From Bacillus sp. ISL-45 (GTDB lineage: Bacteria > Bacillota > Bacilli > Bacillales > Cytobacillaceae): DNA of 64,000 bases. Both the position numbers and the translations under genes were made by a program. The DNA lies in the NCBI RefSeq assembly GCF_018613195.1, contig NZ_JAGGQQ010000019.1, positions 186,001 to 250,000 of the forward strand, read 5' to 3'. The notes beneath the pieces were generated by a model that made no database searches, was not told where the DNA came from, and worked only from the letters and a program-made list of their open reading frames with translations. Each line of letters starts with the position of its first letter. Positions within the stretch are counted from its first letter, which is position 1. Positions 7,712-62,795 of this stretch are shown one piece after another.

Positions 7712-7840
7712 CCCCTTTTATTTTCCTGGTTTTCAATTCTTGTCTTGTCTCGAGGAACTTATCGGTGTTTTATTTTCCCGGTCACCTGCCCATGGCCAGA
7801 GCCGAGTACATTTCCGGGTTTTATTTTCCCGGTTTTCCTC
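7712..7840. repeat. Short palindromic repeat array, theme TTTTATTTTCCCGG
   Basis: Copies of TTTTATTTTCC(C/T)GG start at 7716, 7768 and 7819, that is 52 and 51 bp apart. The best copy is flanked as CCGG-G-TTTTATTTT-CCCGG, an inverted repeat. No gene is present between 7671 and 8064; the two long open frames here follow the repeats and have no coding character. Confidence 0.6.
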
Positions 7841-7885
7841 TCTTTACCGGAGGCTTGGAGCATATTTTGTATTGCTGTTGAGAAT

Positions 7886-7914
7886 AAGACTCGCTGTTAG
7901 ATGCTCCGAGTCTT
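7886..7914. terminator. Hairpin between the repeat array and malic enzyme
   Basis: AAGACTCG and CGAGTCTT are perfectly complementary with a 13-nt loop; the T run that follows is weak (CTTTATT). Confidence 0.5.
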
Positions 7915-8064
7915 CTTTATTAGGTGTCCTTCTCAAACATGAAGTTAATGGTCCAGTCTGAGGGATATTTTTGTGTTTGGACTGTTGCACAATCTCTGTT
8001 TTCACCAAATTCTGAAAAGGGTATACATACTTAGAACAGCTTACAAAAGAAAGAGGGGAGATTG

Positions 8065-9753
8065 ATGTCAAATTCTAATGTGATCCAGACTACTTTAAGA
8101 GGAAAGGAACTTTTATCGAATCCTTTTTTAAATAAAGGTACTGCATTTACCAGGAAGGAACGGGAGGAGTTGGGTCTGGAAGGGTTATTGCCGCCCCAGG
8201 TGCTAACGCTCGAGGAACAGGTGAAAAGGGTTTATGAGCAGTATTCAATCAGGACCACCAATTTATTTAAGAATGGTCTCCTTTATGATTTGTATAACCG
8301 GAACGTTGTCCTGTTTTACCGATTGCTCAAGGATCATTTAAGTGAAATGCTTCCTATTGTTTATACTCCTACTGTCGGGGAGGCAATTGAGCAATATTCA
8401 CAGGTTTATCGCCGTCCAGGTGGATTGTATTTATCGATTGATGACCAGGATGGAATTGAAACGGCGTTTAAGAACCTCGGACATGCCAAGAATGAAATTG
8501 ATTTGATTGTCGTTACCGATTCCGAAAGCATTCTCGGCATCGGAGACCAGGGGATTGGCGGCATCAATATCTCGATTGGTAAGTTAGCCGTTTACACAGC
8601 AGCTGCTGGGATCAATCCTAGCCGGGTTTTGCCAGTGGTGCTGGATGTGGGAACGAACAACAAGGCTCTGGCAGACGATCCATTTTACATCGGTAACGAG
8701 TTCCCGCGGGTCCGCGGCGAGCGTTATGATGAGTTCGTTGATGCTTTTGTCTCAACTGCAAGAAAATTTCACCCTGATGTGCTGCTTCATTGGGAAGACC
8801 TAGGCAATGTGAACGCCCGAAAGATCATGGAGAAGTATGGAGATAAGATTCTCACCTTTAATGATGATATTCAGGGTACAGGAGCTGTCACCCTTGCGGC
8901 CATAAAGTCTGCCTTGAAAATGACAGGCGGTTCATTGAAGAATCAGCGTATTGTTGTATTTGGGCCTGGTGCTGCAGGAATTGGCAATGCAGACCAGATG
9001 GTGGATGCCATGGTTTCTGAAGGATTATCAAAAGAAGAAGCTTATAAACAGTTCTGGGCGATTGATTACAGGGGCCTTTTGACGGAGGAACATGGAGATG
9101 TCCTGGATTTCCAAAAACCATATGTCCGGGGAGTTAACGAAGTGGAAAGCTGGGCACGGAATGACGAGGGCATTATCCCATTGATGGAAGCAGTCAAAAG
9201 GGTGAAACCGACGATTCTGATCGGTACATCTGGACAAGCTGGTGCTTTCTCGGAGGATATTATCAAAGAGATGGCTAGGTATACGGACCGTCCAATCATC
9301 ATGCCGATGTCCAATCCGACATCTCTGGCAGAAGCAGTCCCTGCTGATCTGATTCAATGGACGGAAGGAAGAGCACTGGTTGCAACGGGGAGCCCGTTTG
9401 AGAATGTAGATTACAGCGGAGTTTCCTATGAAATCGGCCAGGCTAACAATGCCTTTATTTTTCCAGGTCTAGGGCTCGGAGCCATTGTGGCAAAAGCAGA
9501 TTTCATCTCAAAAGGCATGTTCACCGCAGCTGCAGACGCTGTTGCCGACATGTGCTGCAATGATCAGCCGGGCGCGTCACTCCTGCCTAACATCAATAAA
9601 TTACAGGAAGTATCCGAAAAAGTTGCAATGACAGTTATCGATGCTGCTATCAAGGAGGGAGTTGCCAGTGCAGATATCACTGATGTCGAAAAGGCAGTGG
9701 CAGATGCAATGTGGAAACCGGTGTATAAGGAGATTAGAAGTGTTAAAAATTAA
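8065..9753 (+). CDS. NAD-dependent malic enzyme (malS/maeA type)
   Basis: A 562-residue enzyme that oxidatively decarboxylates L-malate to pyruvate and CO2 with NAD. The large-subunit signatures are present: [10 protein letters not shown] near residue 110, [17 protein letters not shown] with the metal-binding aspartates, a Rossmann turn [11 protein letters not shown] (second glycine of GxGxxG is kept), and SNPTSLAEA. Length equals the SfcA/MalS group (about 560) rather than the short YtsJ type. ATG 8065 has AGAGGGG 6 nt upstream. Single-gene unit. GC and codon use are core-like. Confidence 0.93.
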
Positions 9754-9879
9754 TATTATTCTGAGCACGGGGACGCACCCTGTGCTTTATTTAGTCATGC
9801 AAAAGAAAAGGAAAAGATCTCTTTAATATTGCATTGTGCTAGAATGGAAATATACGTTCGTTTTATAGAGGTGTTTATT

Positions 9880-10485
9880 TTGCTGATGAGTAAAGAAGAT
9901 GTTATAAAGCTAATTCAAACAGACCAAAGAATGATGGAAATAATTCATGCAGCAAGCACTCTTGATTTGCCAGACTGGTGGATCTGTGCCGGGTTTGTCC
10001 GTTCGAAAATCTGGGACACGCTGCATGGTTTCGAGGAGCCTACATTGACACCGGATGTAGATGTGATTTATTTCGATCCAGCGATTATTAATGAAGACTA
10101 TGAAAAAACACTGGAAAACCAGTTGAAAAGTCTTATACCTGACGTTCCCTGGTCTGTTAAAAATCAGGCAAGGATGCATGTCGTCAATCAGATTCCTCCC
10201 TATACTTCCTCAGAAGATGCCATCTCGAAATTTCCAGAAACAGCCACTGCTCTTGGCGTGAAGCTGGACAAAGAGAAGAGGCTGGTCCTGACTGCACCAT
10301 GTGGATTGGAAGATGTCTTTCATATGGAAATAAAGCCTGCTCCTTTTTTTACAGAAACGAGAGAGCGTGCTGCTATTTACGAGGAGCGGCTGATCAAGAA
10401 GAACTGGACAGCTAAATGGCCAATGGTGAAAGTACATCATATACCATTACTCTCCCGGGAAAAATCCCATTCGAATAGCTCCTGA
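9880..10485 (+). CDS. Nucleotidyltransferase family protein (NTP_transf_6 type)
   Basis: About 200 residues. The motif AGFVRSKIWD followed by LTPDVDVIYFD is the G-[ST/F]-x-R ... DxD pattern of small nucleotidyltransferases of this family (PF06042); substrate unknown. TTG 9880 fits best, with AGAGGTG 6 nt upstream; ATG 9886 is an alternative, and the upstream frame to 9829 has no SD. The C-terminus after KWPMVKV is short and polar and may be slightly altered. Probably a single-gene unit after the malic enzyme. Confidence 0.78.
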   Translation: MLMSKEDVIKLIQTDQRMMEIIHAASTLDLPDWWICAGFVRSKIWDTLHGFEEPTLTPDVDVIYFDPAIINEDYEKTLENQLKSLIPDVPWSVKNQARMHVVNQIPPYTSSEDAISKFPETATALGVKLDKEKRLVLTAPCGLEDVFHMEIKPAPFFTETRERAAIYEERLIKKNWTAKWPMVKVHHIPLLSREKSHSNSS

Positions 10486-10745
10486 AACTCTTATTCAGGA
10501 TACCGGTATAGTAGGCTAGAGGGTTTTTTACCAGCAGAGGTGTTTTCATTTTTCGGATCAGCTCTTTAAAAGAATCGAGGGAGACAGACAGAATGGTATT
10601 TGTCTCGTTAATTTTAGCAGAAAAACGAGCGAGCCTCTTTAATCCACCAATTCACCCTCTGAAAAATCAAGCTTGTGGACAGCCAGCCACATCTCCAAAT
10701 GATTGTTGAACTCACCTACCGAACTGAATTGCGATCATCCTTCAA
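10470..10745 (-). pseudogene. Relic of a Bacillus HTH (replication-regulator-like) protein
   Basis: No complete frame exists, but reading the minus strand and allowing frame changes gives VGEFNNHLEMWLAVHK, LDFSEGELVDLKRLARFS, TILSVSLDSFKELIRKM and KTPLLVKNPLAYYTGILNK. This order resembles the repetitive Bacillus helix-turn-helix proteins that end in NP-x-Y-x-G-I-L-N. Several indels and a missing 5' end make it non-functional. It explains most of the gap between 10486 and 10961. Confidence 0.45.
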
Positions 10746-10961
10746 ACACTCACCCTGATTTAATTGTCATGACTTTGCACCGCCCTTTCATTGTCTATAT
10801 ATAGATGGGCAGGCAGAAAGGACAGGTTAGGGAGGGTGACATTGTGGCAGTATTGTTACAGAATTAGATTATTTTACATAAGATTAGTCTAGTTTTAAGA
10901 CTCATTAAAAGACAGAAATTTTTTAAATAATTATAATAGACCAAAAGGGTGGTGAAGAATC

Positions 10962-11177
10962 GTGGATAAACAAATAATGGAACTTTTAACAGAGTTAAAA
11001 AAAGTAATTAAGGAAATCAAATATATGCTCAACACATTCGAAAGAGCGCAAACCGGGGACCTATTAGAAGGTACCAATAATAGGACGGAATCGGAACTTG
11101 AATGTTTGAATCACAGAATATTACAGATGGACAAGCGTATATTTTTCTTGGAAAAGCAATCCATTTATAGACGATAG
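10962..11177 (+). CDS. Small coiled-coil protein
   Basis: 71 residues with leucine/isoleucine heptads almost throughout (IMELLTELKKVIKEIKYML, then LNHRILQMDKRIFFLEKQ), so a cytoplasmic coiled coil is likely. It resembles the N-terminus and general plan of the broken coiled-coil gene at 11560-11908, suggesting two members of one family in tandem. GTG 10962 follows GGTGGTG. No function known. The 380 bp after it hold no recognisable gene. Confidence 0.55.
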   Translation: MDKQIMELLTELKKVIKEIKYMLNTFERAQTGDLLEGTNNRTESELECLNHRILQMDKRIFFLEKQSIYRR

Positions 11178-11559
11178 GCTGCTAAAGGTTGATTCGTTGT
11201 ATAAACATTCACTTCAGATTTCTTCAAAAGCATGTCCACCCAGAAAACTCCTGCAAACCCAACCATCGGTATGTTTATTAAACTCTCTTAGCATTAATCT
11301 TTTTTTATTGGTTCAATTTTTAATTCTCTTGTCGGCTTAAGCCTTATGACATCGTATTAAAACCAAATATTATTAAGTTCCTTATTGAAAGTAAGTGAGA
11401 GGGGAAATTGATCCTTATAAACGTTAATTACCAGGAAAAATTGGGGGAGCATCGGAACTAATCGAAAACTTAAGCAGTTTATTTTCCTCGATCTTTCATT
11501 GTTCTAGTTTGTAGGTCTAGATTATAATTATTTTATTAGAAATTGACGGGGGAAAATTT

Positions 11560-11908
11560 GTGGAAGAAATTTTAAAGCGAATTTTAAATGAAATTCAAGA
11601 AATGCGTCGAGGTATGAATGACCTAAAACAAGGCCAGAACGTACTGGAAGTCAATATCAAAGATTTGAAACAAGGCCAGACGGGCTGGAGGTCGATATCA
11701 AGGATTTGAAACAAGGTCTGTACAGACTTGAAGTGGATATTAAAGACCTGAAACAAGGCCAGAACAGACTGGAAATTGGACAAGAAAAATTACAAAAGAA
11801 TCTTTATACACAGATAAAATCGTTGAGCATATTGATGATAAGACAGAAGCGTTAAACAAAAGAGTTTACAAAGTAGAGACAGAGATCGAACGGTTGAGCA
11901 GACAGTAA
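11560..11908 (+). pseudogene. Coiled-coil repeat protein with two frameshifts
   Basis: GTG 11560 with ACGGGGG upstream opens MEEILKRILNEIQEMRRG. It then enters a repeated unit of 14 residues, DLKQGQNxLEVDIK, in about four copies encoded by 42-bp tandem repeats. A one-base loss near 11677 and another indel near 11800 break the frame; compensating for them restores the repeats and an end VYKVETEIERLSRQ. Such proteins form long helices. Slippage within the 42-bp repeats probably caused the damage. Confidence 0.65.
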
Positions 11909-11936
11909 GGGATTCGATTCCTTACTTTTTTCTTTT
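11904..11936 (+). terminator. Terminator after the coiled-coil gene
   Basis: GTAAGG and CCTTAC arms around GATTCGATT, followed by TTTTTTC. It overlaps the stop codon. Confidence 0.65.
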
Positions 11937-11980
11937 TATAGAACGTCTTATTATGGTGACTATAAATGAAGCTATGCTAA

Positions 11981-12712
11981 GCCCAGGTCCGGACAAAATC
12001 TTAATAATTTTAAACAAAGTTGTCCGAAGTAGCCCTGGCTTCGGACAAAATCAGGAAGATTTCCTTTAAAGTTGTCCGAAGTAGCCTCAGGTTCGGACAA
12101 AACCAGTAAGATTTCTAACGAAGTTGTCCGAAGTAGCCCTATGTTCGGACAAAACTAGGAAGGTTTCTATCAAAGTTGTCCGAAGTAGCCCTGGCTTCGG
12201 ACAAAACTAGGAAGGTTTCTATCAAAGTTGTCCGAAGTAGCCCTGGCTTCGGACAAAATCAGGAAGATTTCCTTTAAAGTTGTCCGAAGTAGCCTCAGTT
12301 TTGGACAAAACCAGAAAGATTTCTACCGAAGTTGTCCGAAGTAGCCCCATGTTCGGACAAAATCAGGAAGATTTCTATCAAAGTTGTCCGAAGTAGCCCT
12401 GGCTTCGGACAAAATCAGGAAGATTTCCTTTAAAGTTGTCCGAAGTAGCCTCAGGTTCGGACAAAACCAGGAAGATTTCTACCGAAGTTGTCCGAAGTAG
12501 CCCCATGTTCGGACATAACTAGGAAGATTTCTATCAAAGTTGTCCGAAGTAGCCCTGGCTTCGGACAAAATCAGGAAGATTTCCTTTAAAGTTGTCCGAA
12601 GTAGCCCTGGCTTCGGACAAAACCAGGAAGATTTCTACCGAAGTTGTCCGAAGTAGCCCCAGGTTCGGCCAATAACATAAAGAATTTCATCAAAGTTGTT
12701 CAGAGCCGCCCT
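11981..12712. repeat. 52-bp tandem palindromic array A (about 14 units)
   Basis: The block TGTCCGAAGTAGCC starts at 12021, 12073, 12125, 12177, 12229, 12281, 12333, 12385, 12437, 12489, 12541, 12593 and 12645, with a decayed copy at 12697: every step is exactly 52 bp. Each unit holds an inverted repeat, TTGTCCGAAG with CTTCGGACAA around a 9-nt loop, then an AT-rich linker. A partial unit precedes the first. Units differ by a few bases and by linker variants that alternate. It contains no gene. It is not CRISPR: the linkers are themselves repeated and there are no cas genes. Confidence 0.9.
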
Positions 12713-12731
12713 CACATCAAGAGCTTTAAGA

Positions 12732-12920
12732 TCATTTAAGTAACTTCTCAGGATTTTTCACCTTAATTGAAACCACTTCTCCACAAGCTAAACAAACTGT
12801 ATAAACCCTTTCGGATCCAATACTCATTTTTCTATCGACTGGCCGGAGATTGATATAATCCATTGCCTGGACGAAAGAGTTTCCGCTGCAGCTACTACAT
12901 TTCATTTCCTTATTACTCAT
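12732..12920 (-). CDS. Small zinc-ribbon protein
   Basis: 62 residues with two CxxC knuckles (CSSC and CLAC) 34 residues apart, the pattern of a zinc ribbon, and a lysine-rich end. Such small proteins occur widely in Bacillus without known role. The start MSNKEMKC (12920) lies 9 nt after AAAGGGG; the ATG three codons upstream abuts the SD and cannot be used. It faces array A, which may lie at the end of its transcript. Confidence 0.65.
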   Translation of the reverse strand: MSNKEMKCSSCSGNSFVQAMDYINLRPVDRKMSIGSERVYTVCLACGEVVSIKVKNPEKLLK

Positions 12921-13072
12921 TAAATGCATCCCCTTTCTATATATTTCCTATACGATTCAGATGTGCAGAGGTTTCACTTTTTAACGAGAAATGGCATTCT
13001 TTTACATTTAAGAAGGATATTCGCTGTCTTTGTTGAATTAGTCTTCTATTGATTGTAAAGGAGATTTCATCT

Positions 13073-17943: not shown

Positions 17944-18096
17944 ATGTCTAGATAAAAGAAGTGTTCCATTGAAGGCAATTGGAACAGGAAATCAACTGTC
18001 TAGATGAAAAAAGTGTTCCAATGAAGGCTATTGGAACATGAAATCGACTGTCTAGATAAAAAAAGTGTTCCAATGAAGGTTATTGGAACATGAAAT
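17944..18096. repeat. 52-bp palindromic array C1 (3 units)
   Basis: TCTAGAT starts at 17947, 17999 and 18051, exactly 52 bp apart. Each unit holds GTTCCAAT ... ATTGGAAC as an inverted repeat. The same family occurs in opposite orientation at 45520-45627. Confidence 0.85.
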
Positions 18097-18110: not shown

Positions 18111-18156
18111 GAACACAACAAAAGGCATTGCACTTGCAATGCCTTTTGTTGTGTTC
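18111..18156. terminator. Bidirectional terminator of the ABC operon and the ParB-like gene
   Basis: A perfect 21-bp stem: GAACACAACAAAAGGCATTGC pairs with its complement around a 4-nt loop (ACTT). A-rich and T-rich segments inside the stem suit both strands. Confidence 0.85.
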
Positions 18157-18162
18157 AATTAA

Positions 18163-18951
18163 TCAATCAAATTCCATAGTTCCTTTTGATCTCGACTGGT
18201 ATTCGGCGTATTTTAACAGTAAGAAGCTTATGGCAAAGAAAGCAATGCCTAACAGGATTTCTTCACCTAAAAGGACTGCCACATTTGAATAGTTTCCATC
18301 GTTCAATATGTCCTTTGTAAGTTGGACGCCTCTTGTCAAAGGTGTGAACTGCCCGAGGAGCTGCAGCCATTCTGGCATCCGGGAATAAGGATAGTTAGCA
18401 CCACTCAATAAAAGTAACAGGCTTGCCAGTATGTTTGACCATAGGTGCATAGAAGGGGACCAGAGACAAAAGGTTCCGAGTATGAGGCCAAGCCCAGCCG
18501 CTGAGAAGATCGAACAAAGCCAAATAATCAGCAGTACGAGACCTTCTTTTAAAGAAATCGTTAACTGAAAGAGAAGGATTCCAAACAGCAGGCCGATTAC
18601 TGCGGTTACCAGTCCATTTAAGACATGCGCGATGGACCGTGATAGAAATAAACTTACTTTATTGTAAGGTGTCGTCATAACAAGGGGAAGAGTTCCCATC
18701 CATCGGTCTGAAGTGATGACAGACATAATACCAAACACTGCATTTAACACACAAAGCAGGAGAGCATTGGCTGCTACATAGCCTAATAGGTTTTCCCCCT
18801 CGTACACATAGTTTACTAAAGTGGAAAAGAAAATTAGCTGGCTGAGTGGACTCAGCAGCATTACGAATAGATATACCTTCGGATCCAGCCAGCCAAATAA
18901 TGCCTTATACGATAGAAAACCGTGACGAATAAATCGTTGAACAGCTTCCAT
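18163..18951 (-). CDS. ABC-2 type exporter permease (second permease)
   Basis: 262 residues with six hydrophobic segments in ABC-2 order. It is the third gene of a minus-strand operon: its start is 2 nt after the stop of the first permease. The two permeases and the ATPase resemble the DrrAB/NatAB-type exporters that expel drugs or lipids; substrate unknown. A strong terminator follows. Confidence 0.85.
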   Translation of the reverse strand: MEAVQRFIRHGFLSYKALFGWLDPKVYLFVMLLSPLSQLIFFSTLVNYVYEGENLLGYVAANALLLCVLNAVFGIMSVITSDRWMGTLPLVMTTPYNKVSLFLSRSIAHVLNGLVTAVIGLLFGILLFQLTISLKEGLVLLIIWLCSIFSAAGLGLILGTFCLWSPSMHLWSNILASLLLLLSGANYPYSRMPEWLQLLGQFTPLTRGVQLTKDILNDGNYSNVAVLLGEEILLGIAFFAISFLLLKYAEYQSRSKGTMEFD

Positions 18952-33206: not shown

Positions 33207-33246
33207 AAAAATGGATTACATTGTAGTTTCAATGTAATCCATTTTT
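33207..33246 (+). terminator. Terminator after ftsZ
   Basis: AAAATGGATTACATTG and CAATGTAATCCATTTT, perfect 16-bp stem, T-rich end. Confidence 0.85.
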
Positions 33247-33303
33247 AAAATTGAACGGAAAAATTTATAGGGGATGATTTTATTATATTATAAAAGATGA
33301 ATT

Positions 33304-33343
33304 AAAATAGACCATCAAATACTACTATATTCAATGGTCTATT
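33304..33343 (-). terminator. Terminator of ggt
   Basis: AAATAGACCAT and ATGGTCTATTT; on the minus strand the T-rich side follows. Lies 70 bp after the ggt stop. Confidence 0.7.
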
Positions 33344-33412
33344 TCCCTTGCATAGATTAAGCTTTTGACAGGTTAGAGAATCTGTAAGGGAACTCTCCCA
33401 CCTTCTTTTGGT

Positions 33413-35185
33413 TTATTTTCGTTTGCCTTTCAGGTTGACTCCGATTGCTGCTCCGTTTCTGCTTGAGTCAGCAACTCCTTTAAAAATACCATTTTCACGA
33501 TCGATGAGAATGCTTTGTACATTCCCAATCGTTGTTGGACTAGGACCAAATTTATGGCCCATCGTGTTCAGTTGGCTAATCGTATCAGCGCTAATGCCTT
33601 CTTCATAACGATAGGAATTAAGATTGTTGGTATAGATTCTTGGCTCTTCGACTGCATCTTTGAGTTCCATATCGTACTCAATTGCATGGATAATGGTTTG
33701 CAGTACTGATGTTATGATGGTCGGGCCTCCAGGGGAGCCTACGGTTAAGACTGGTTCACCTTCGTTATCAAAAACGATAGTCGGTGTCATGCTGCTCAGT
33801 GGGCGTTTGTTTGGCTGGACTTCATTCGCGCCGCCTGGGACTGCGTCGAAGTCGGTCAATTCATTGTTCAGCATGAATCCATAACCAGGCACCATGATGC
33901 CTGTTCCAAAAACCTGTTCAATGGTTGTTGTGTAGGAGACGACATTTCCCCATCTGTCTGTAACCGAAAAATGTGTTGTTTCTCCATATTTCCGATCATT
34001 TGGCTGGCTTGCTTTTGCATAGTTGGCTTCGGAATCTTCGTACTTCCAAGGGTCGCCGGCTGTTGAATTTTGATTGACTGAATCCAGACTGATCAGTTCC
34101 TGGCGCTCCTTGATATAATCCGGGTGTAGAAGTCCATTCACAGGCACATTGACAAATTCAGGGTCACCAGCGTATGCTGCTCGGTCCGCGTAGGCAAGGT
34201 GCATGGCTTCGGCCAGAAGATGATATTTTTCTGCTGATCTAACATCATATTGTGACAGATTGAAATCATCAAGGATTTTCAGCATTTGCAGCAGGAAGAC
34301 ACCGCCTGAGCTTGGTGGTGGCATGCTGGCAATTTCGTAGCCTTGATAGTCTCCCCACACTGGCTCATCCACTGTTACATCATATTTTTCCAGGTCCTCT
34401 GAAGTCATTGAACCTCCAAATTCCTGGACAACGTCTGCAACCGCATCGGCGATTTCTCCTTTATAAAATGCGTCCGAACCTTGCGAGCGAATCAGCTTAA
34501 AGGTTTTAGCCAAATCGTCCTGAACAAGAACATCTCCCTCTTGAAGTGGCTCTCCGCCAGGGAGGAAGACCTCACTTGCTGCAGATCTTGATAACTTGTC
34601 CTGATTATCCGCAATCGCATCTGCCAGGACCGAATCAATCGGGAATCCCTTGTCAGCGAGCTTAACGGCCGGTCCAATCAGCTGTTGCAGCGGGCGAGTT
34701 CCCCACATTTCAAGCGCTGTTTCGAGCCCCTTCAGCGTACCCGGCACTCCCACTGCTGTACCGCCAGTTGATCGAGTGGAGAATGGAATTGGATTTCCGT
34801 TCTGATCCAGGAACATATCTGGTGTCGCGCCTTCAGGAGCACGCTCGCGACTGTTCACAATCTTGGTTTCCTTTGTTTTTCCGTCATAAACCATCATGAA
34901 ACCGCCGCCGCCGATTCCGGACATCATGGGCTCTACTACTGTCAGTGCAAACTGGATGGCAACAGCAGCATCAACCGCATTTCCTCCCTTGCGAAGAACT
35001 TCAGCACCAATCTCAGATGCAAGTGGATGGGCTGTTGCAACCATACCATCTTTGCCAATATCAACCTGGCTGTACTGGTCGTAGCTGAATTGCGGTTTTT
35101 TAGCCAGTCCCGCTGCAGGCATGGTACCGGCGAGCAACAGAACACTTAGCAGAGCAAATAGCCCAGTACGTAAGAAACTTTGCAT
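33413..35185 (-). CDS. ggt: Gamma-glutamyltransferase
   Basis: 590 residues, the usual GGT length. Signal peptide (residues 1-29, hydrophobic core LFALLSVLLLAG), then the large subunit with NAVDAAVAIQFALTVVEP and SGIGGGGFM. The self-cleavage site is ETTHFSVTDRWGN, where the second Thr becomes the catalytic N-terminus of the small subunit; SSMTPTIV and GSPGGPTI follow. It is secreted and cleaves gamma-glutamyl compounds (glutathione, polyglutamate). ATG 35185 follows AGGAGGG. Single-gene unit. Confidence 0.95.
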   Translation of the reverse strand: MQSFLRTGLFALLSVLLLAGTMPAAGLAKKPQFSYDQYSQVDIGKDGMVATAHPLASEIGAEVLRKGGNAVDAAVAIQFALTVVEPMMSGIGGGGFMMVYDGKTKETKIVNSRERAPEGATPDMFLDQNGNPIPFSTRSTGGTAVGVPGTLKGLETALEMWGTRPLQQLIGPAVKLADKGFPIDSVLADAIADNQDKLSRSAASEVFLPGGEPLQEGDVLVQDDLAKTFKLIRSQGSDAFYKGEIADAVADVVQEFGGSMTSEDLEKYDVTVDEPVWGDYQGYEIASMPPPSSGGVFLLQMLKILDDFNLSQYDVRSAEKYHLLAEAMHLAYADRAAYAGDPEFVNVPVNGLLHPDYIKERQELISLDSVNQNSTAGDPWKYEDSEANYAKASQPNDRKYGETTHFSVTDRWGNVVSYTTTIEQVFGTGIMVPGYGFMLNNELTDFDAVPGGANEVQPNKRPLSSMTPTIVFDNEGEPVLTVGSPGGPTIITSVLQTIIHAIEYDMELKDAVEEPRIYTNNLNSYRYEEGISADTISQLNTMGHKFGPSPTTIGNVQSILIDRENGIFKGVADSSRNGAAIGVNLKGKRK

Positions 35186-36564: not shown

Positions 36565-37290
36565 TTTTTAATGTGACGATAAATTCCATCTCAGGCTTTT
36601 TATCCGCCCAATATTCTATTTAATGTGACGATAAATTCCATCTCAGGCGTATGATCCGCCCAATATTCTATTTAATGTGACGATAAACTTCTTCTCAGGC
36701 TTTTTATCCGCACAATATTCAATTTAATGTGACGATAAATTCCATCCCAGACGTATGATCCGCACAATATTCAATTTAATGTGACGATAAATTCCTTCTC
36801 AGGCTTTTTATCCGCACAATATTCTATTTAATGTGACGATAAACTTCTTCTCAGGCTTTTTATCCGCACAATATTCAATTTAATGTGACGATAAATTCCT
36901 TCTCAGGCATATTAACCGCACAATATTCAATTTAATGTGACGATAAATTCCTTCTCAGGCTTTTTATCCGCACAATATTCAATTTAATGTGACGATAAAT
37001 TCCTTCTCAGGCTTTTTATCCGCACAATATTCTATTTAATGTGACGATAATTTCTATCTCAGAAGTTTTAACCGTACAATATTCAATTTAATGTGACGAT
37101 AATTTCCATCTGAGGCACATGATCCGAACAATATTCAATTTAATGTGACGATAAATTCCTTCTCAGGCGTATTAACCGCACAATATTCAATTTACCGTGA
37201 CGATAATTTCCATCCCAGACGTTTTATCCGCCCAATATTCTATTTAATGTGACGATAAATTCCTACCCGAGCGGTTTATCCGCACGATGT
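36565..37290. repeat. 52-bp tandem array D (14 units)
   Basis: ATGTGACGATAA starts at 36571, 36623, 36675, 36727, 36779, 36831, 36883, 36935, 36987, 37039, 37091, 37143, (37195, changed to CCGTGACGATAA) and 37247. Every step is exactly 52 bp. Each unit has GATAAA ... TTTATC arms and an AATATTC(A/T)ATTTA linker. It shares period and copy number with array A but no sequence. No gene between 36434 and 37520. Confidence 0.9.
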
Positions 37291-37520
37291 TCTTTTGGAT
37301 CCTCTGTGCGTCCTGCAAAAATTAATACTGTTATGTATGTAAGCGAAGAATGTCATGCCACCCGGTTAACCCTGATCTTTAAGTGATTAGTAGGTCTAAA
37401 GTCCAAATAGAAGTTTGTCTTTTGTTGTCTAAATATTCATTCTTTTTACACTATTAATATAGTTCTAACTTAAACTATCATTTATTTAGCGTCCCGAAAG
37501 GTGTAAAAAGGAGGGGAGAT

Positions 37521-39661: not shown

Positions 39662-39719
39662 TCTATAAACTGTTCAGTTTGAGAGGCGAACGGATGATCA
39701 GATATTCGAGTGGGTATAA

Positions 39720-39922
39720 GAATGCATAAGCGGAGAATTTCCGGCTATTGTAAAAAATGACGCTTATGAAGCAGAAATAAGCGGAGAATTTCCGTTTAAC
39801 TGATATAAAACTGAAAAAATCCAACTATTTTGAGTCAATAAGCGGAAAAATTCCCCTTATTTTGACGGAAAAAAGGCTTGTTTCTAATTTAAGCGGAATT
39901 CTTCCGTTTATTTTTTATGCAA
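39720..39922. repeat. Palindromic repeat array E, theme AAGCGGAGAATTTCCG
   Basis: AAGCGGA copies start at 39728, 39779, 39840 and 39891 (steps 51, 61, 51). Each is an inverted repeat, CGGA with TCCG around an A/T core, and the copies have drifted. No gene between 39662 and 39996. Confidence 0.7.
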
Positions 39923-45487: not shown

Positions 45488-45881
45488 ATGAAGGGTTATT
45501 ATTTGGAGCAATTATCATAATTACATGTTCCAATAGCCTTCGTTGGAACACTTTTTTCATCTAGACAATCGATTTCATGTTCCAATAGTCTTCATTGGAA
45601 CACTTTTTTTATCTAGACAGTCGATAGCTGGGATCATACTATCTTTGTTTCCACCGAAAAAGATTAATAGTCTTTATGGATATAGAACTGCGAGTTCAAT
45701 GAGAAGGGAGGAAAATTGGGAACAGGCAAATAAATATAGCAGCAGATTAATGATTATTTTCGGAATTCTAATACTTTTAATTTCGTTTATATTTAAAAGT
45801 GCAATTCTAAATCTAATCACGCTTGGCGTTTCAATAGTAATTATTTTTATTTTAGTTGAAACTAAAATTTCAAAGAGATGA
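45488..45881 (+). pseudogene. SdpI-family membrane protein interrupted by two 52-bp repeat units
   Basis: GGGGGGAG and ATG 45488 start a hydrophobic segment (LLFGAIIIIT in the frame one base over). Array C2 then intervenes (45520-45627). The gene resumes with AGIILSLFPPKKINSLYGYR, the SdpI signature P-P-K-x-I-N-x-x-Y-G-Y-R, and a membrane tail to 45881. Removing about 104 bp restores one protein of about 110 residues like YfhL/SdpI, which gives immunity to toxic peptides. The gene is probably inactive. Confidence 0.7.
45520..45627. repeat. 52-bp palindromic array C2 (2 units) inside an SdpI-family gene
   Basis: CATGTTCCAATAG starts at 45524 and 45576, 52 bp apart. The family is the reverse complement of array C1 at 17944-18096 (TTGGAACACTTTTTT, ATCTAGACA shared). 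Confidence 0.85.
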
Positions 45882-56956: not shown

Positions 56957-57071
56957 TTTGTAGATATTACTGTCTGACTGTTGTATGCTTATACTTCATT
57001 ATGTTTGGTTTTTACTAGAGAGAAATGGTTAAAACTAATCAATGAACGTCCAAGAAGATGGAGATGATTTT

Positions 57072-57245: not shown

Positions 57246-57261
57246 TGACTGTTGCACACTA

Positions 57262-57300
57262 GAGGCGTTGATCCATTAATGGGATTGACGCTTTTTTGTT
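57262..57300 (+). terminator. Terminator, dispersed-repeat-like hairpin
   Basis: GCGTTGATCC and GGATTGACGC with a T run: the left half of the dispersed repeat used as a terminator. Confidence 0.75.
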
Positions 57301-57413
57301 TATTTTGTTATTATGTTTCAATAAAATAATGATAAGAATTAATAAAAATTTATTGTAAAACGATAAATAACATGGTAAATTCAAATTGACACTATATGAA
57401 TGAGGTGCTTGTT

Positions 57414-57905
57414 ATGAAAAAAGGGTCAACAATTTTTTTGAAGGTAGCAGTTATTTTAATTGGCCTTCCAGTTCTCGCTTTATGCCTGTTTGTATTGCCT
57501 CAGATTGCGTCTGAAGCGAATGAAGCAGTGGAAAGGGGTTCAGATCTGGCTTTTACAGTTTACGCCATTTTAATGGTTATGTATGTTTCGGCCGTTCCAT
57601 TTTACTTCGCTCTGTATCAATCCTTTAACCTTTTAACGTATATCGATAGAAACCAGGCTTTCTCTGACTTATCTGTATTAGCTTTAAAGAAAATTAAAAA
57701 TAGTGCGATCATTATCAGCGGCTTATACGTGGTTGCCCTCCCATTCGTCTATGTTTTAGCGGAGGTTGATGATGCGCCTGGCTTGATCCTCATTGGAATG
57801 GGCATGATTTTTGCTCCACTTGTGGTTGCTGTTTTTGCGGCAGTCCTGCAGCGTCTTTTACAAGAAGCCATCGAAATCAAGGAAGAAAACGACTTAATAG
57901 TCTGA
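57414..57905 (+). CDS. DUF2975 family membrane protein
   Basis: 163 residues with four hydrophobic segments (VAVILIGLPVLALCLFVLP, FTVYAILMVMYVSAVPFYF, IIISGLYVVALPFVYVLA, LILIGMGMIFAPLVVAVFA). DUF2975 proteins are paired with a small HTH gene in many Firmicutes (yoaS-yozG in B. subtilis), and so here: the next gene follows after 10 nt. ATG 57414 has GAGGTG 6 nt upstream. Confidence 0.88.
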   Translation: MKKGSTIFLKVAVILIGLPVLALCLFVLPQIASEANEAVERGSDLAFTVYAILMVMYVSAVPFYFALYQSFNLLTYIDRNQAFSDLSVLALKKIKNSAIIISGLYVVALPFVYVLAEVDDAPGLILIGMGMIFAPLVVAVFAAVLQRLLQEAIEIKEENDLIV

Positions 57906-57915
57906 GGTGAAAACA

Positions 57916-58131
57916 ATGGCAATTATAATCAATATTGATGTGATGTTGGCGAAGAGGAAAATGAGCGTAACAGAACTTTCAGACCGGGTCGGAATCACGA
58001 TGGCAAACCTGTCTATATTGAAAAACGGAAAAGCAAAAGCGATCAGGCTTTCCACATTGGAGGCCATTTGCAAAGCGTTAGAATGCCAGCCCGGAGATAT
58101 TCTCGAATATAAAGAGGATGAAGAATATTAA
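57916..58131 (+). CDS. XRE-family HTH regulator (YozG-like)
   Basis: 71 residues, nearly all helix-turn-helix: INIDVMLAKRKMSVTELSDR, VGITMANLSILKNGKAKAIR, TLEAICKALECQPGDILEY. This is the small Cro-like type that accompanies DUF2975 genes; the membrane protein probably modulates it. ATG 57916 has TGAGGTG 6 nt upstream. Confidence 0.88.
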   Translation: MAIIINIDVMLAKRKMSVTELSDRVGITMANLSILKNGKAKAIRLSTLEAICKALECQPGDILEYKEDEEY

Positions 58132-58191
58132 AAACCACGGGAGAATCGGTAAAGTGCTGATCAAGGTTTTAAAATGTAAGGAGCAACAATT

Positions 58192-58341
58192 ATAAATTTT
58201 GATGTTAAAAAATAATTCAAGGTATGTGTCTTCAAAAATGGCTATATTAGTGAGTCTTTTCCGTCAAAGATAATAGGATTGAACGGTGATTATCTAGATG
58301 GAAAGAATGAACTAAAATACTTACTTGTTCTACAAATATAG
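58192..58341 (+). pseudogene. Short gene with in-frame TAA and no canonical start
   Basis: After AAGGAG the frame reads INFDVKK, TAA (58213-58215), then FKVCVFKNGYISESFPSK and GLNGDYLDGKNELKYLLVLQ to a stop. The only start-like codons are ATT or ATA. The coherent sequence on both sides of the stop suggests a decayed small gene. Confidence 0.4.
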
Positions 58342-58383
58342 TGTGCGGTAATCCAGGACAGAAAGGATTACCGTACTTTTTTA
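58341..58383 (+). terminator. Terminator, dispersed-repeat-like hairpin
   Basis: GCGGTAATCC and GGATTACCGT arms followed by ACTTTTTTATT. Confidence 0.7.
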
Positions 58384-58509
58384 TTGAAAATTTCAGCTGG
58401 ACCGAGTTAGATTTAATCGGATAAATATAATAGTTTGAATAGCATGCAAGAATAAGGACATATACACAAACATATTATGGGGGTGAAGTCTGTATAAGGG
58501 GTGGGGAAA

Positions 58510-59304
58510 ATGGCTAATCCAATTGTCGCTAGGTCGTTGGACGAAATTCAGTTTTGGTCCAGAATCATGAAGGAACATGCTCTGTTTTTAAGCCTCGGAT
58601 TTACTTATGAACAACAGCAATTGATTGCTGAGGCTCAGCAATTTATTACTCTCTTTGAACGAATCGAGGAAAAACTGGCAAGGTTTTCTATAAACACGGA
58701 TATACGCCAAATTCAAGCTTTTAACAATGAAGTTTACCAAGCAGCTGTTGCTATATGGAGTTACAAAAGAAAGGTGCTAGGGCTAACCTTACGCTGTGAA
58801 ATCAGGACAAATAATTTTCCTTTATTGGTTGACCATGTTAGCAGAGAGGCAGCTTATTTTGCCAACAGGTTAAAAGAACTTAACGAAGGAAAACTAGCCC
58901 CCGAACCTGATAAGATCATTCAAGAAAATCTTTTCTTTTTAAAGATTATGGCCGACCATGCAAAATTCATCGGACATCTCTTAGATCCTTCTGAAAGAAA
59001 ACTAGTAGAACAAGCAAATGAGTTTAGTCATGATTTTGATCAGTTGGTATTCCAGGCGGTTGATTTAGACTCCATGCGACCGCAATCTGAAACAGTGCCA
59101 ATCCTGGATCAATTCCTGGATCAAAATAGAGTTTCAGTCGCTTCATTAAGGGATTTTAAAAAGACAGCAAGAGAATTAATAGAGGCTTGCCGAATTAAAA
59201 GTAATATTCATCCACTCTTGGCGGACCATACATTTAGAGAAGCGGAGAGATTCTTAGAGATTATAGATTTATTTGATACTCACCTTACAACAGCAAAGCA
59301 ATAA
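58510..59304 (+). CDS. DUF2935 family protein
   Basis: 264 residues made of two similar helical halves: EIQFWSRIMKEHALFLSLGF ... PLLVDHVSREAAYFANRL, and ENLFFLKIMADHAKFIGHLL ... PLLADHTFREAERFLEII. Conserved His/Glu pairs in each half fit the ferritin-like metal-binding fold of DUF2935. Function unknown. ATG 58510 has AAGGGG upstream; GTG 58501 overlaps the SD. Confidence 0.85.
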   Translation: MANPIVARSLDEIQFWSRIMKEHALFLSLGFTYEQQQLIAEAQQFITLFERIEEKLARFSINTDIRQIQAFNNEVYQAAVAIWSYKRKVLGLTLRCEIRTNNFPLLVDHVSREAAYFANRLKELNEGKLAPEPDKIIQENLFFLKIMADHAKFIGHLLDPSERKLVEQANEFSHDFDQLVFQAVDLDSMRPQSETVPILDQFLDQNRVSVASLRDFKKTARELIEACRIKSNIHPLLADHTFREAERFLEIIDLFDTHLTTAKQ

Positions 59305-59520
59305 CAAAACATTGTTTCAGATTCGGTACAGAGCAGCGATTTTTATTTTAGAAGCCATACTCACCACCTAGGACATATTAATTTTTTTTAAAGTTAAACA
59401 TACCTGTTTACTTGCATCACTTATCTACTTAAAAGAAAAGAAAACAGATAATGATGCCAGAAAAAAGGAGAAAACGAGAATCTATGCTTGCTTTACCGAG
59501 AAACCATAGAAAGGAATTTA

Positions 59521-59549
59521 TTGACAACAAATGGATTAACAGCTAAAAT
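59521..59549 (+). promoter_or_regulatory. Promoter of the T-box operon
   Basis: TTGACA (59521-59526), 17-bp spacer, TAAAAT (59544-59549). The expected start point is about 59556. Confidence 0.65.
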
Positions 59550-59555
59550 ATTTAA

Positions 59556-59846
59556 AAAATCCATATAATATAAGCGTTGAAGAGAAGAGTAGTTATGCTT
59601 GAATATTTTTAGAGAGCTCCTGGATGCTGAAAGGGAGTAATATTCCGCTTAATAAATAAAGTCTCGGAGCTTCTTGCCAATCTGATTATAAATCAGGGAT
59701 CACAAGACGGATTCTTCCGATATAAAGATAGGGTATGAACGTACCTGAAGAGGTTGGTTTGGCGACAAATCAACAAACTGAGGTGGTACCGCGAAGTCAA
59801 ACTCTCGTCCTCAAGATTCATTTCTTGTGGGCGAGCGTTTTTTTTA
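59556..59846 (+). promoter_or_regulatory. T-box leader (tRNA-sensing riboswitch)
   Basis: The diagnostic T-box sequence AGGTGGTACCGCG is at 59781-59793. Upstream lies the stem I region (GAAGAGAAGAGTAG ... AGAGAGCTCC ... GTCTCGGAGCTTC). Downstream is a terminator, CTCGTCC-T-CAAGA pairing with TCTTG-T-GGGCGAG (59803-59836) and eight T. The TGGT of the antiterminator bulge fits a tRNA with discriminator A. The specifier loop reads TAAATAAAGT; if AAA takes the place of the usual GAA, the specifier is AAA (lysine), which is uncertain. It controls a GNAT gene, not an aminoacyl-tRNA synthetase or amino acid transporter. Confidence 0.88.
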
Positions 59847-59880
59847 TGCAAAAATCCATAGAACGGTGAGGGGAAATAAA

Positions 59881-60447
59881 ATGCCAAATCCTATATTATT
59901 CGATATTCCATCCCAGATAGAAACAGAAAGATTATTACTTCGGGCACCACATCCTACTGGTGACGGAAATATTGTTAACCAGGCGATAAGGGATTCTTTT
60001 GATGAGTTAAAAGCATGGCTGCCATTTGCGCAAAAGCTTCCTGCAGTTGAAGAAACGGAGATTAACCTGAGAAATGCCCATATCAAGTTTTTAAAGAGGG
60101 AAAGCTTCCGTTTTCTCATATTTCGAAAAGAGACAAATGATTTCATTGGGACTGTCAGCCTTCAAGGGATTGACTGGTCCATTCCTAAATGTGAAATTGG
60201 TTATTGGATTAATACGAAGTTTGGGGGAAACGGCTATATGACAGAAGGGGTAAAAGCATTGACTGTTTATGGGCTAAATCAACTTGAATTTAAGAGAATT
60301 GAAATAAGATGTGAATCTACTAATCTGAAAAGCCGAGCAATCCCTGAAAAACTTGGATTTGAACTAGAAGGTGTTTTACGTAATGATGATTTATCGGCTG
60401 ACGGCAGCAGGCTGACCGATACATGCTTCTATTCGATAATTTCATAG
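59881..60447 (+). CDS. GNAT acetyltransferase (RimJ/RimL type) under T-box control
   Basis: 188 residues. IETERLLLRAPHPTGDGNIV is the RimJ/RimL start, EIGYWINTKFGGNGYMTEGV the acetyl-CoA loop, and KSRAIPEKLGFELEGVLRND the end. Members acetylate protein N-termini or small amines. First gene after the T-box, so its product is made when the cognate tRNA is uncharged. ATG 59881 has GAGGGG upstream; the frame from 59827 runs through the terminator. The next gene starts 87 nt after its stop. Confidence 0.88.
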   Translation: MPNPILFDIPSQIETERLLLRAPHPTGDGNIVNQAIRDSFDELKAWLPFAQKLPAVEETEINLRNAHIKFLKRESFRFLIFRKETNDFIGTVSLQGIDWSIPKCEIGYWINTKFGGNGYMTEGVKALTVYGLNQLEFKRIEIRCESTNLKSRAIPEKLGFELEGVLRNDDLSADGSRLTDTCFYSIIS

Positions 60448-60533
60448 ACTTGCAGATTTCCCAGGAGGATTCATGCGTCTTTTTGTGGAAATTCTTCATT
60501 AAAAATACTTTTGGAGCAAGGGGGAAAACTGAC

Positions 60534-61727
60534 ATGGAGTATTATACGATCCGAACCTCTAAAGATTTAACAAAATCAAAGCTGGATCAATATTGGCCGG
60601 GATTTGAAATGGTAGCTTATGCCTTCTTTGATCGTTCGCACGTATATTTATTCAATCATCCTAAATTCAACCGGGCACGAAAAAAATTAAAATGGGATGA
60701 ACAGTTTATGGGTTGTACCCATATTCTTTATGAAGAATATCCAACTGCAATTGTAGATTTAGAATTATTTGAGGACTATGAAAGCTTGTTTTCGATTCTC
60801 GTACATGAATTATTTCACGGTTATCAATATCTGAAGGGCGAAAAGCGGTTTCCAAATGAAATTCTGGGGATTACTTATCCATTATCGATAGAAAATATTT
60901 CTTTAAGGAACCTTGAAAGATTCTCCCTTTACCATGCTTTGCTGGAAAATGACCCTCAAAAGAAGCAGCAATATCTCTCTACATTCATATTCCTTAGAGA
61001 TGAAAGAGTTTCGAAAATTAAAGAATACCATTTATATGAAACCTTGATAGAAACGGTAGAGGGACCTGCTTGGTATGTTGAATTCAAGGCATTTATGGAG
61101 AAAAGTCCCTTAGAAAATGAGACGGTTTTGAAAAAGTACGGAGAATCTTTACTAAACCAATATGAATCTACCTCCCATATACGGAGGAGCTGCTATAGTT
61201 CCGGATTGTTTATGTGTTTATTATTAGATGAGTTTTCACCAGGCTGGAAGGTAGATTTTCTGGAAAGAGAAGACTCTTTATATGATTTTTTCAAAAAGAC
61301 GGCAGGGAATATTAATACCGAACCTCAACACCATATGGAAGTAAGCTTAGACACGGACGCAGCGATCAATTTTTCCCTTGAAAGCAGGAGAAATGAATTT
61401 ATAACCTTTGAAGAACAAGCAGGTTTTCCTCTGACTATTGAGGGTGAAGTGACAGCAGTATCTTTTGACCCCATGAATATCGTATTCATGGAAGATACAC
61501 TTTTACATAAAAACTTTCTGAAAGTTAAAATGGGCAATCAACATTTTCTGATGCATCAACCTGTTATGGCACAGTTCAAAGATAGAATTCAAAACATTAC
61601 TAAACTGAGACTAGTATTAAAAGAGAAACCTGTCGAAAATATGGACTCGCTAACAGTGGAAGGAGTTGGGGAAATTAAGGGAAGGTATATAAAAGAGGGG
61701 GAGAGTTATCACCTATTTGTTAATTAA
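60534..61727 (+). CDS. Uncharacterised protein with HExxH motif
   Basis: 397 residues, soluble, no signal peptide. At about residues 97-105 it reads VHELFHGYQYLKGE, a zincin-type HExxH; a possible third ligand is the glutamate in ETVEGPAWYVEFKAF about 90 residues later. The last 110 residues form a beta-rich domain (FPLTIEGEVTAVSFDP onward). I do not recognise the family. If it is a peptidase it would be cytoplasmic. ATG 60534 follows AAGGGGG. It lies between two GNAT genes downstream of the T-box. Confidence 0.7.
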   Translation: MEYYTIRTSKDLTKSKLDQYWPGFEMVAYAFFDRSHVYLFNHPKFNRARKKLKWDEQFMGCTHILYEEYPTAIVDLELFEDYESLFSILVHELFHGYQYLKGEKRFPNEILGITYPLSIENISLRNLERFSLYHALLENDPQKKQQYLSTFIFLRDERVSKIKEYHLYETLIETVEGPAWYVEFKAFMEKSPLENETVLKKYGESLLNQYESTSHIRRSCYSSGLFMCLLLDEFSPGWKVDFLEREDSLYDFFKKTAGNINTEPQHHMEVSLDTDAAINFSLESRRNEFITFEEQAGFPLTIEGEVTAVSFDPMNIVFMEDTLLHKNFLKVKMGNQHFLMHQPVMAQFKDRIQNITKLRLVLKEKPVENMDSLTVEGVGEIKGRYIKEGESYHLFVN

Positions 61728-61773
61728 AAGAAGCGCAAAGACTGTTAACATTCAAGTAGGGAGTTTTAACCAA

Positions 61774-62226
61774 ATGATGAACGAAGTGTACTCTAGAGAT
61801 ATTGATCATACAAATGAATGCACTGTGAAATATATAAAATTAAAACCAGGCCAGGAAAGATTCATCGAAACCGTGGACGAGTGTTTAAAAGAAGCTGGAC
61901 GTTATCATGAATGGCATCCGGCAGCTATATATTTTGATGAGGAAGTCATTGGATTTGCTATGTACGGTTCTTTTGGTCCAAACAAAGATACTTGGATTGA
62001 TAGGATAATGATTGAAGAAAAATTTCAAGGCAAGGGTTTTGGAAAAAATGCCATGGTGAATCTTATTGATAAAGTTTCAAAAGAGTATGGTGTTCAGGTT
62101 GTCTACTATTTAAGTATTATCGAGGAAATCACAATAGCCCAAAGATTATACAAAGACTTGGGATTTTAATACACCAATGAAAGAGATCCAAATGGTGAAC
62201 TCATATTTAAATATACTATCCACTAA
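61774..62226 (+). pseudogene. GNAT acetyltransferase (BltD-like) with premature TAA
   Basis: The product has ETVDECLKEAGRYHEWHPAA, GFAMYGSFGPNKDTWIDRI, the loop EEKFQGKGFGKNAMVNLI and RLYKDLGF, close in plan to the spermidine acetyltransferase BltD. At 62167-62169 a TAA interrupts the frame exactly where relatives continue; the same frame goes on for 18 codons (YTNERDPNGELIFKYTIH) to a stop at 62224. The first 132 residues contain the whole acetyl-CoA site, so some activity is conceivable. GGGAG lies 10 nt before ATG 61774. Confidence 0.7.
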
Positions 62227-62320
62227 ATGTCTTCTGGTTAATTTTATTAACTGAATATTGAAACCTTTTTTTAACACACTCGTAAAGTTTATATATAAAA
62301 CGGTACAGGGTGTTGAAATC

Positions 62321-62542
62321 ATGGGATGGGGCTTGGCCAGGAATACAGATTTTAGTGGGCATGAAATTGAAATTGCTGCAATTTTTGCAGTATTCATCGT
62401 AATCGGAATTTGGGTGTACTATGATTCTGACAAATATTTTGTGGGGATCAAGAGACATATCTTCTGGGGATTAACAATCTTAACGGGTCCAATAGGTCTG
62501 ATCATTTATCTAGTACAGAGGAAAAAAGAGGGATTGGTTTAA
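62321..62542 (+). CDS. Small two-helix membrane protein
   Basis: 73 residues from ATG 62321: MGWGLARNTDFSGHEIEI, helix AIFAVFIVIGIWVYYD, basic loop, helix WGLTILTGPIGLIIYLV. A weak SD (AGGGTG) is 8 nt upstream. Similar to short phospholipase_D-nuclease-N-like anchors only in plan. No family assigned. Confidence 0.5.
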   Translation: MGWGLARNTDFSGHEIEIAAIFAVFIVIGIWVYYDSDKYFVGIKRHIFWGLTILTGPIGLIIYLVQRKKEGLV

Positions 62543-62631
62543 TAGGATTGGTTATTTTAGAAAAAGTACGTTCTGATCTAGTTACTATAATCCTAAAAAC
62601 GCATTATTGGTTAAAATGGATTATAGTACGA

Positions 62632-62795
62632 CTGAAAGTGCCCGGTAGAAGAGCTCTATCGGCCAAACGGAGGCTGTGACCGAGGAAAAGTGTCCAATAG
62701 AAGGGTTCTATCGGCCAAACGGAAGCGGTGACTGAGGAAAAGTATCCGATAGGAGAGATTTATCGGCCAATACTCAAAAGTACTGGGACGTACCC
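62632..62795. repeat. 52-bp palindromic array F (3 units)
   Basis: Units start at 62638, 62690 and 62742, exactly 52 bp apart. Each has an inverted repeat of CCGATAG and CTATCGG type followed by a CCAAACGGA linker. No gene between 62543 and 62859. Confidence 0.8.

Follow-up and report, generated by a model that had tools for sequence, protein, structure and literature searches.

A palindromic layout of constant dimensions in about half of the 52-bp tandem arrays of a Mesobacillus genome and its relatives

The 64,000-nt stretch of DNA analysed here (the window; Bacillus sp. ISL-45, contig NZ_JAGGQQ010000019.1, positions 186,001 to 250,000) contains a set of tandem arrays that have in common a repeat unit of 52 bp. 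The source genome, designated G000, comprises 4.6 Mb in 27 contigs and belongs to the genus Mesobacillus; judged by malic enzyme, its closest named relatives are Bacillus sp. ISL-41 (93% identical) and Mesobacillus selenatarsenatis (92%). Comparison of array sequences from this genome and its relatives indicates that about half of them share one measured hairpin layout, whose shape is kept while its letters change. It is tempting to suggest that the arrays are mainly self-propagating (selfish) satellites of fixed-size hairpins, a tentative reading that we would not yet call probable.

The 52-bp repeat class as such is already known. Two constant repeat sizes in Bacillus, 52 and 20-21 nt, of variable sequence and unknown function, have been described (Subirana & Messeguer 2021, PMC8161180), and 1886 of the 4029 tandem repeats from 176 Bacillus genomes in that study lie at 51-53 nt; B. 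subtilis 168 is credited there with a single tandem repeat. The preliminary description of the window, which held that no such repeat class had been described, was therefore mistaken on this point. What is added here is a shared sequence grammar, its covariation, an indel test and an empty insertion site; none of these was found in the literature searched, and a 2020 J Bacteriol paper or supplementary tables may hold the grammar.

The class-I layout and its distribution

The layout was recognised among 62 array consensuses from G000, from the relatives used for site comparison (G011 and G015), from six other congeners and from a locus of Bacillus sp. ISL-41 (a second named locus had no array), two of an initial 64 (period 54, one in a coding region) having been excluded before clustering and class analyses. 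Both of the tetramers TGTC and GACA are present in 24 of the 62, in every case exactly 23 bp apart, which defines class I as TGTC-N19-GACA; shuffled consensuses gave a mean of 0.04 and a maximum of 1 at that distance, and outside arrays it is unremarkable (it occurs 23 times there, when the mean is 17.8 and one other distance reaches 32). The 62 consensuses are not independent, because G000, G011 and G015 share orthologous loci. Close to class I are six further consensuses with one mismatch and two of a shorter form, TGTT-N17-AACA. Class II (13 consensuses) is TGTG-N31-CACA-like, and class III (8 consensuses) consists of 53-bp units of the type CCCTTATG... Single-linkage clustering of themes joined 60 of the 62 consensuses and was set aside, as it is uncorrected for the number of comparisons.

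An independent check was provided by the 27 consensuses of Table 1 in PMC8161180, a paper whose table also includes B. selenatarsenatis, of the same genus as G000. Six of them hold both tetramers, five at 23 bp (coagulans, with two families, litoralis, thermoamylovorans and alkalitelluris), when 2000 shuffles of the published families yielded a mean of 0.009 and a maximum of 1. TGTG-N31-CACA fits one published family, and shuffles reach one as well. Among genomes of the family, 99 of 151 contain the class-I grammar in tandem (95 with at least two matches; reversed control 2), so the lack of sequence conservation between species ascribed to the 52-nt class does not hold for this component of it. 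A class-wide search was made with a tandem pattern in which the first gap was free between 17 and 21 and the linker between 23 and 27. It matched 28 of 398 genomes, ten of them with at least two matches per strand; these ten span five families, one outside the order. The other 18 do not go beyond one match per strand, and nor does the reversed control, in which 11 genomes were counted. In seven of eight array-bearing loci fetched from this search the leading TGTC-GACA distance is 23, and the next distance is 28-30.

Within the genus, counts per strand range from zero to 632. The zero belongs to G012, a congener listed as 100% complete, when the other 20 congeners searched have 17-632; G012 is thus a natural negative for class I within the genus, useful for finding a factor. 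When a loop of N4-N10 was allowed for one subfamily, six closed congeners had 52-124 matches per genome on both strands, with reversed controls at zero, and the loop is N9 in all the subfamily matches listed. No replichore polarity of the TCCGAAGT subfamily was apparent by eye among the G003 matches listed.

The period itself was surveyed in a 945-kb sample of G000, of which 261,636 bp come from contig 12 and 683,491 bp from elsewhere. Periods of 51-53 account for 33 of 60 arrays with period 30-120, weak ones such as that at 7.7 kb in the window being counted. Extrapolation from these 33 gives roughly 160 arrays per genome. The relatives show the same peak: nine of 15 arrays in G011 and four of five in G015 have a period of 52. 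Each of six further congeners (20-40 kb sampled each) has at least one array of period 51-53, and 40 stretches sampled from 20 genomes in other genera of the family yielded 21 arrays, seven of them with a period of 51-52. The constancy of unit length put forward in the preliminary description is thus borne out, and the class cannot be dismissed for want of a genome-wide peak at 52, since that peak is present in G000 and again in G011 and G015. Definition of the class by length and not by sequence is incomplete, in that the length is constant and about half of the arrays hold a cryptic grammar.

The arrays also have other properties of the published class. Several sequence families occur within G000. 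In unmasked sequence, one of 52 arrays of period 50-54 (a period-54 repeat, the coding one excluded above) lies within an open reading frame (ORF) of at least 100 aa running 150 nt past both ends, and five of the 52 are covered by any such ORF, so that the arrays are non-coding. The second-largest period group in the G000 sample is 40-42 (10 arrays), which is a doubled 20-21. The corresponding 20-21 bp isometric class, which has TCGCTATAAAAA among its themes and is frequently called at 40-42 bp, is seen in G000 for example at L008:15442-15555, L010:5999-6104 and L025:8820-8930. Two other repeats, interspersed and roughly 180 and 120 bp long, lie at L006:11339-11517 and 18133-18253 and have numerous copies in G011 and G015.

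Stem covariation and unit integrity

The class-I building block would be a hairpin of 27 nt in total, recurring every 52 bp, with TGTC/GACA as its conserved base, a stem of about 10 bp and a loop of 7 nt. The preliminary description had called nearly all of the arrays palindromic, and palindromy is confirmed for 45 of the 62 consensuses from G000 and its relatives, which lie above the 95th percentile of shuffles. Covariation was assessed on 35 hand-picked class-I sites, one to four per genome: 15 from the genus, five published, and 15 from other genomes. The published and some of the genus sites are array consensuses, perhaps slightly more regular than single units, and a letter-for-letter check was possible for 11 of the 15 genus sites and at most 8 of the 15 outer sites. 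The six pairs inside TGTC/GACA are 78.8% paired across the 35 sites, and the covariation score is 0.740 compared with 0.197 (standard deviation 0.032) for shuffles, none of 500 being as high; frames slid along the sites score at most 0.244. Watson-Crick pairing also holds for 56 of the 78 pairs in a thinned set of 13 sites whose arms are unlike; 5000 arm swaps reached at most 45, with a mean of 26.4. The stems therefore covary between subfamilies, and since a single genome holds many dissimilar arms it is self-complementarity that seems to be the property kept. Such covariation favours a hairpin, short of proof, since a family of homodimeric proteins with drifting specificity would also yield symmetric arms.

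Constraint is evident within arrays as well. In 34 of the 62 (selected for three or more units and a stem score no lower than 8), differences from the array consensus amount to 0.046 per site in the stem and 0.135 at other positions, a threefold difference, the stem value being lower in 33 of the 34. Indels are depleted as well. For 37 arrays with at least four units, each fitted to its own periodic consensus, 32 indels were counted against 1550 substitutions, a ratio of 0.021, when intergenic alignments from the same species gave 951 indels against 6175 substitutions (0.154), or 0.123 if confined to the 757 indels of 3 bp or less. Detection bias does not explain this depletion: arrays simulated with a ratio of 0.123, that of the small indels, come out at 0.093-0.113 when analysed in the same way, which leaves a depletion of about fivefold.

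Arrays of the window and their orthologous sites

The window was scanned with Tandem Repeats Finder and by autocorrelation; three Markov-shuffled windows gave no repeats in the identical scan. Five of the seven arrays originally listed have an exact period of 52, at 11.97-12.72, 17.92-18.12, 36.54-37.31, 45.49-45.65 and 62.60-62.79 kb, and the other two are weak. The candidate at 7.7 kb (7750-7860, with no strand assigned) consists of two 51-bp copies of 65% identity, falls in no class and was not called by Tandem Repeats Finder at a score of 40; that at 39.7 kb (39743-39915, likewise without strand), composed of irregular AAGCGGA...TCCG hairpins, is below every threshold applied. A homologue of the AAGCGGA/TCCGCTT hairpin region at 39701-39915 is found in G011 and G015 at a different locus, so that it has been moved or re-inserted.

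The 12-kb array (12015-12699, forward strand) has about 14 units of 52 bp and belongs to class I (TGTCCGAAG...CTTCGGACA); its unit steps amount to 11 x 52 with no exceptions, and TGTC-N19-GACA recurs exactly at 52-bp steps in 12 units. It is further organised as a higher-order repeat of three units (156 bp). Higher-order repeats of the same size occur at L005:14852-15541, L017:19108-19665 and L031:7824-8128. A 42-bp repeat at 11626-11774, whose period is a multiple of three, may be coding and stands outside the 52-bp class. At 62.6 kb (62635-62770, forward strand) there are about 2.6 units of class I with one mismatch (TGTCCGATAG...CTATCGGCCA), where the orthologous site of G011 has about 6-7 units. 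The 36.6-kb array (36567-37292, reverse strand; 14 units, with steps of 13 x 52 and again no exceptions) is of class II, TGTG..CACA-like. It starts directly after a hairpin judged by eye to be terminator-like, itself behind a GNAT gene, and is missing in both G011 and G015. Where the window holds this array, G015 has, directly behind the same terminator-like hairpin, an element resembling a miniature inverted-repeat transposable element, with ends GGCTCTGTTAAA...(A)ACAGAGCC; it lies on G015 contig 2 at about 33219-33520 and recurs in G000 at L004 from 15157.

The 17.9-kb array (17945-18096, forward strand) has three units of 52 bp with the TGTT-N17-AACA arrangement, a class-I relative shorter by 2 bp. 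It is flanked by a gene stop and a terminator-like hairpin (judged by eye) and is missing at the orthologous site of G015; a collinear site in G011 was not found. Its theme is that of the 45.5-kb array, on opposite strands and with 93% identity over 108 bp, in agreement with the original observation that the two share one sequence. The sequences counted there as six different ones are in part related: the 12- and 62.6-kb arrays share the class-I grammar and the 17.9- and 45.5-kb theme is a relative of it, the 36.6-kb array having the second grammar.

The two relatives, whose aligned blocks are 87-95% identical to those of G000, reveal how arrays differ between species. Array-linked length differences are mostly of whole units, 16 of 21 departing from a multiple of 52 by at most 2 bp (some represent one event seen in two comparisons); the remaining five measure 32, 40, 97, 465 and 567 bp, and some arrays have been lost together with their flanks. 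The clean gain is at 45.5 kb (45522-45625, reverse strand), where the window is longer by exactly 104 bp, or two units, than both G011 and G015, which have the empty site. The insertion falls within an SdpI-like reading frame and breaks it: the frame is intact at the empty site of G011 (L038:1438-1755), which matches the SdpI family (PF13630, 2.4e-17), and in the window the remainder of the gene lies past the insertion at 45626-45881 on the forward strand. A 2-bp AT at the junction renders the exact borders ambiguous by 2 bp and fits either a 2-bp overlap or chance. In a second case, blurred at its borders, G015 differs by 104 bp from G011 and by 97 bp from G000.

The view that nearly all arrays lie at gene ends was examined through the gene context of the 52 arrays, of which nine at stretch edges were excluded, leaving 43 with two flanking ORFs. 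The flanking genes are co-directional in 29 cases, convergent in 11 and divergent in three, and 19 of the 29 co-directional arrays lie closer to the upstream stop than to the downstream start. Arrays avoid divergent gaps (3/43 against 19%, p = 0.026; 4/61, p = 0.006, if later and partly pattern-chosen loci are included), and convergent gaps are not clearly enriched (11/43, p = 0.10). The pattern is not diagnostic, because any tolerated insertion would give it.

Candidate explanations and known systems

If the arrays are selfish satellites, then the hairpin would form in the cell, and some factor would read both the hairpin and the unit length. A copying process, and not a benefit to the host at each locus, would preserve the units, in that copying would go on only from those whose stem and length are both undamaged. 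Arrays would expand and contract in place through exchange between units, and would occasionally be re-inserted elsewhere as whole-unit pieces, perhaps from a circular form n x 52 nt long. To expect the same of classes II and III would be an extrapolation from class I. A wider proposal, which we hold with less assurance, is that a single ancient element accounts for much of the 52-nt satellite set of the class Bacilli: TGTC-N19-GACA every 51-53 bp, with a free stem and obligatory complementarity, read by a dedicated putative factor that recognises a fixed-size hairpin and the unit length. This hairpin-reading system would stand apart from RAYT (the transposase considered below), integron, CRISPR (clustered regularly interspaced short palindromic repeats) and ParB.

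The earlier suggestion that the arrays are products of a dedicated insertion activity gains from the exact two-unit insertion at 45.5 kb; the enzyme was not found. Nor did the search for a conserved protein correlating with the arrays succeed for the two families considered, Y1_Tnp and ParB_N, since neither tracks them. Y1_Tnp (PF01797), the family of IS200 and of the REP-associated tyrosine transposase (RAYT; REP, repetitive extragenic palindrome), is found in 128 of 151 genomes of the family. G012 has four Y1 matches and no grammar matches, and none of the three Y1 loci of G000 (L111-L113) has, in the surrounding 1.5 kb or so, an array of period 50-54 or a sequence that matches class I or class II exactly. 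A RAYT/IS200 transposase as driver is disfavoured by these flanks and by presence and absence across genomes. Solitary units as seeds were likewise rejected, few having been found: 34 of the loci sampled in G000 overlap arrays and seven lie outside them, a count in which diverged single units could be missed.

Several observations weigh against the selfish reading and its wider form. Y1 is absent from G016, G019 and G020 despite 514, 63 and 534 grammar matches respectively, in keeping with the failure to find the enzyme. Only one insertion is fully clean, and most differences are changes of copy number at sites shared between species, which fit plain recombination. Thirty of the 62 arrays fall outside class I, namely those of classes II and III together with nine unclassed, and classes II and III themselves weigh less, having been named post hoc with a mismatch allowed. 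Locus L178 shows the distance 22 twice and 23 once. In eight arrays of period 49-54 from other genera the tetramer pair is at 23 in one, at 29 in one (L142, from G086, a genome with no tandem match in the family search) and absent in six, so that the grammar covers only part of the class, seven of the eight lacking the pair at 23. Two of five covariation measures fail to exceed the shuffles, namely double-change pairs (410 of 500) and additional types of pair (105 of 500), and compensatory doubles within arrays are not clearly enriched, with 16 doubles against 10.7 expected, eight of them compensatory. Lastly, palindrome covariation is also consistent with a homodimeric DNA-binding protein with drifting specificity.

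That protein is the basis of the first alternative, in which each unit is a homodimer operator on double-stranded DNA, with 10-bp arms and a 7-bp spacer, and 52 bp represents five helical turns, so that a polymerising protein occupies one face and might for instance organise the nucleoid. We regard it as somewhat doubtful. It accommodates a spacer and linker that are free in sequence and (nearly) fixed in length, the depletion of indels, and the closeness of both 52 and 20-21 bp to whole helical turns; a polymerising nucleoid protein is, moreover, one of the two proposals discussed by the authors of PMC8161180, the other being small RNAs. It sits less easily with the coexistence of many unlike arms in one genome, since one protein would read only TGTC/GACA yet complementarity is kept beyond it, or with linkers of 24-26 bp at some loci, which give periods of 51-53. 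The one binder family tried, ParB_N, is constant across 22 genomes whether array-rich or not (two copies in 19, three in the other three), so a ParB_N paralog was rejected as the factor, and a cognate paralog tracking the arrays, as a ParB/parS-type centromere would have, was not found in this family.

Transcription from the upstream gene, with tandem hairpins serving as mRNA 3' ends, as a protein sponge or as a source of processed small RNAs, appears unlikely. It would agree with the stem covariation, and the 52-nt repeats of B. coagulans are reported to be transcribed, being visible in RNA-seq (PMC8625621). On the gene strand of co-directional contexts, G.T pairs exceed A.C pairs by 62:14 in 21 arrays (in 11 arrays as against four), and the excess recurs in six of seven further same-strand arrays (two probably orthologs), L192 being opposite; 12 arrays at stretch edges were excluded from the strand test, and L191, a probable L185 ortholog, was omitted from the orientation count. 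This asymmetry was at first taken as a positive indication of G.U pairing in RNA, but in the later arrays the excess falls mainly on one fixed pair, T10.G18, in a single subfamily. The orientation of arrays was traced to a general strand skew: their purine-rich strand agrees with the gene strand in a ratio of 22:9, no stronger than the 99:21 of intergenic gaps free of arrays. RNA hairpins are, besides, not expected to fix the lengths of loop and linker, and no Rfam 15 family matches the arrays of the window at gathering scores. The sole Rfam match in the window is a T-box leader at 59568-59815 (RF00230, 114 bits), upstream of an ORF at 59827.

Neutral minisatellites, in which slippage amplifies chance palindromes and the length stems from one ancestor, would explain the whole-unit copy changes and decayed outer units that are hallmarks of slippage, but they are already disfavoured by the indel test, as well as by the conserved stems and a geometry kept across five families, and are very improbable.

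The authors who described the class call the repeats enigmatic, and the selfish reading, like its alternatives, has become testable through a pattern search with 16 letters and near-zero background: it can now be asked which gene tracks the pattern, which factor binds the 27-mer, and whether a change of one base in the spacing abolishes its reading.

Among known systems, CRISPR arrays are similar in their regular spacing and palindromic parts. They differ in that here the whole 52 bp repeats, unique spacers are absent and the loci are many. The sopC locus of the F plasmid and parS are tandem centromere repeats whose units each have an inverted repeat, as do the units described here, and the half-site TGTTCCA of the 17.9- and 45.5-kb arrays resembles the Bacillus parS half-site; such centromeres number one or a few, against the roughly 160 arrays extrapolated for this genome, and ParB_N does not track the latter. 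Closer in some respects is the REP/RAYT system, with its GTAG- and CGTC-tagged palindromes (PMC3733652). Both comprise short, multi-copy and probably mobile palindromes whose subfamilies combine a free stem with a fixed tag, the arrays differing in having the tag on both arms (TGTC/GACA), a strict 52-bp tandem arrangement, few solitary units and no link to Y1.

The nearest relatives remain the repeats of Subirana & Messeguer (PMC8161180), with which the present arrays agree in unit length, in having several families per genome, in being non-coding, in a copy number that varies between strains (conservation between strains being partial in the published set), in the presence within one repeat of short signals and their reverse, and in sharing their genomes with a 20-21 nt class. 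The difference is that sequence conservation between species was denied for those repeats, whereas the present analysis adds a common grammar, stems that covary, a test of indel rates and an insertion with its empty site. Membership of the 52-nt class stands, and the shared grammar revises the description of that class in part: the same length without shared sequence may conceal a strict conservation of shape.

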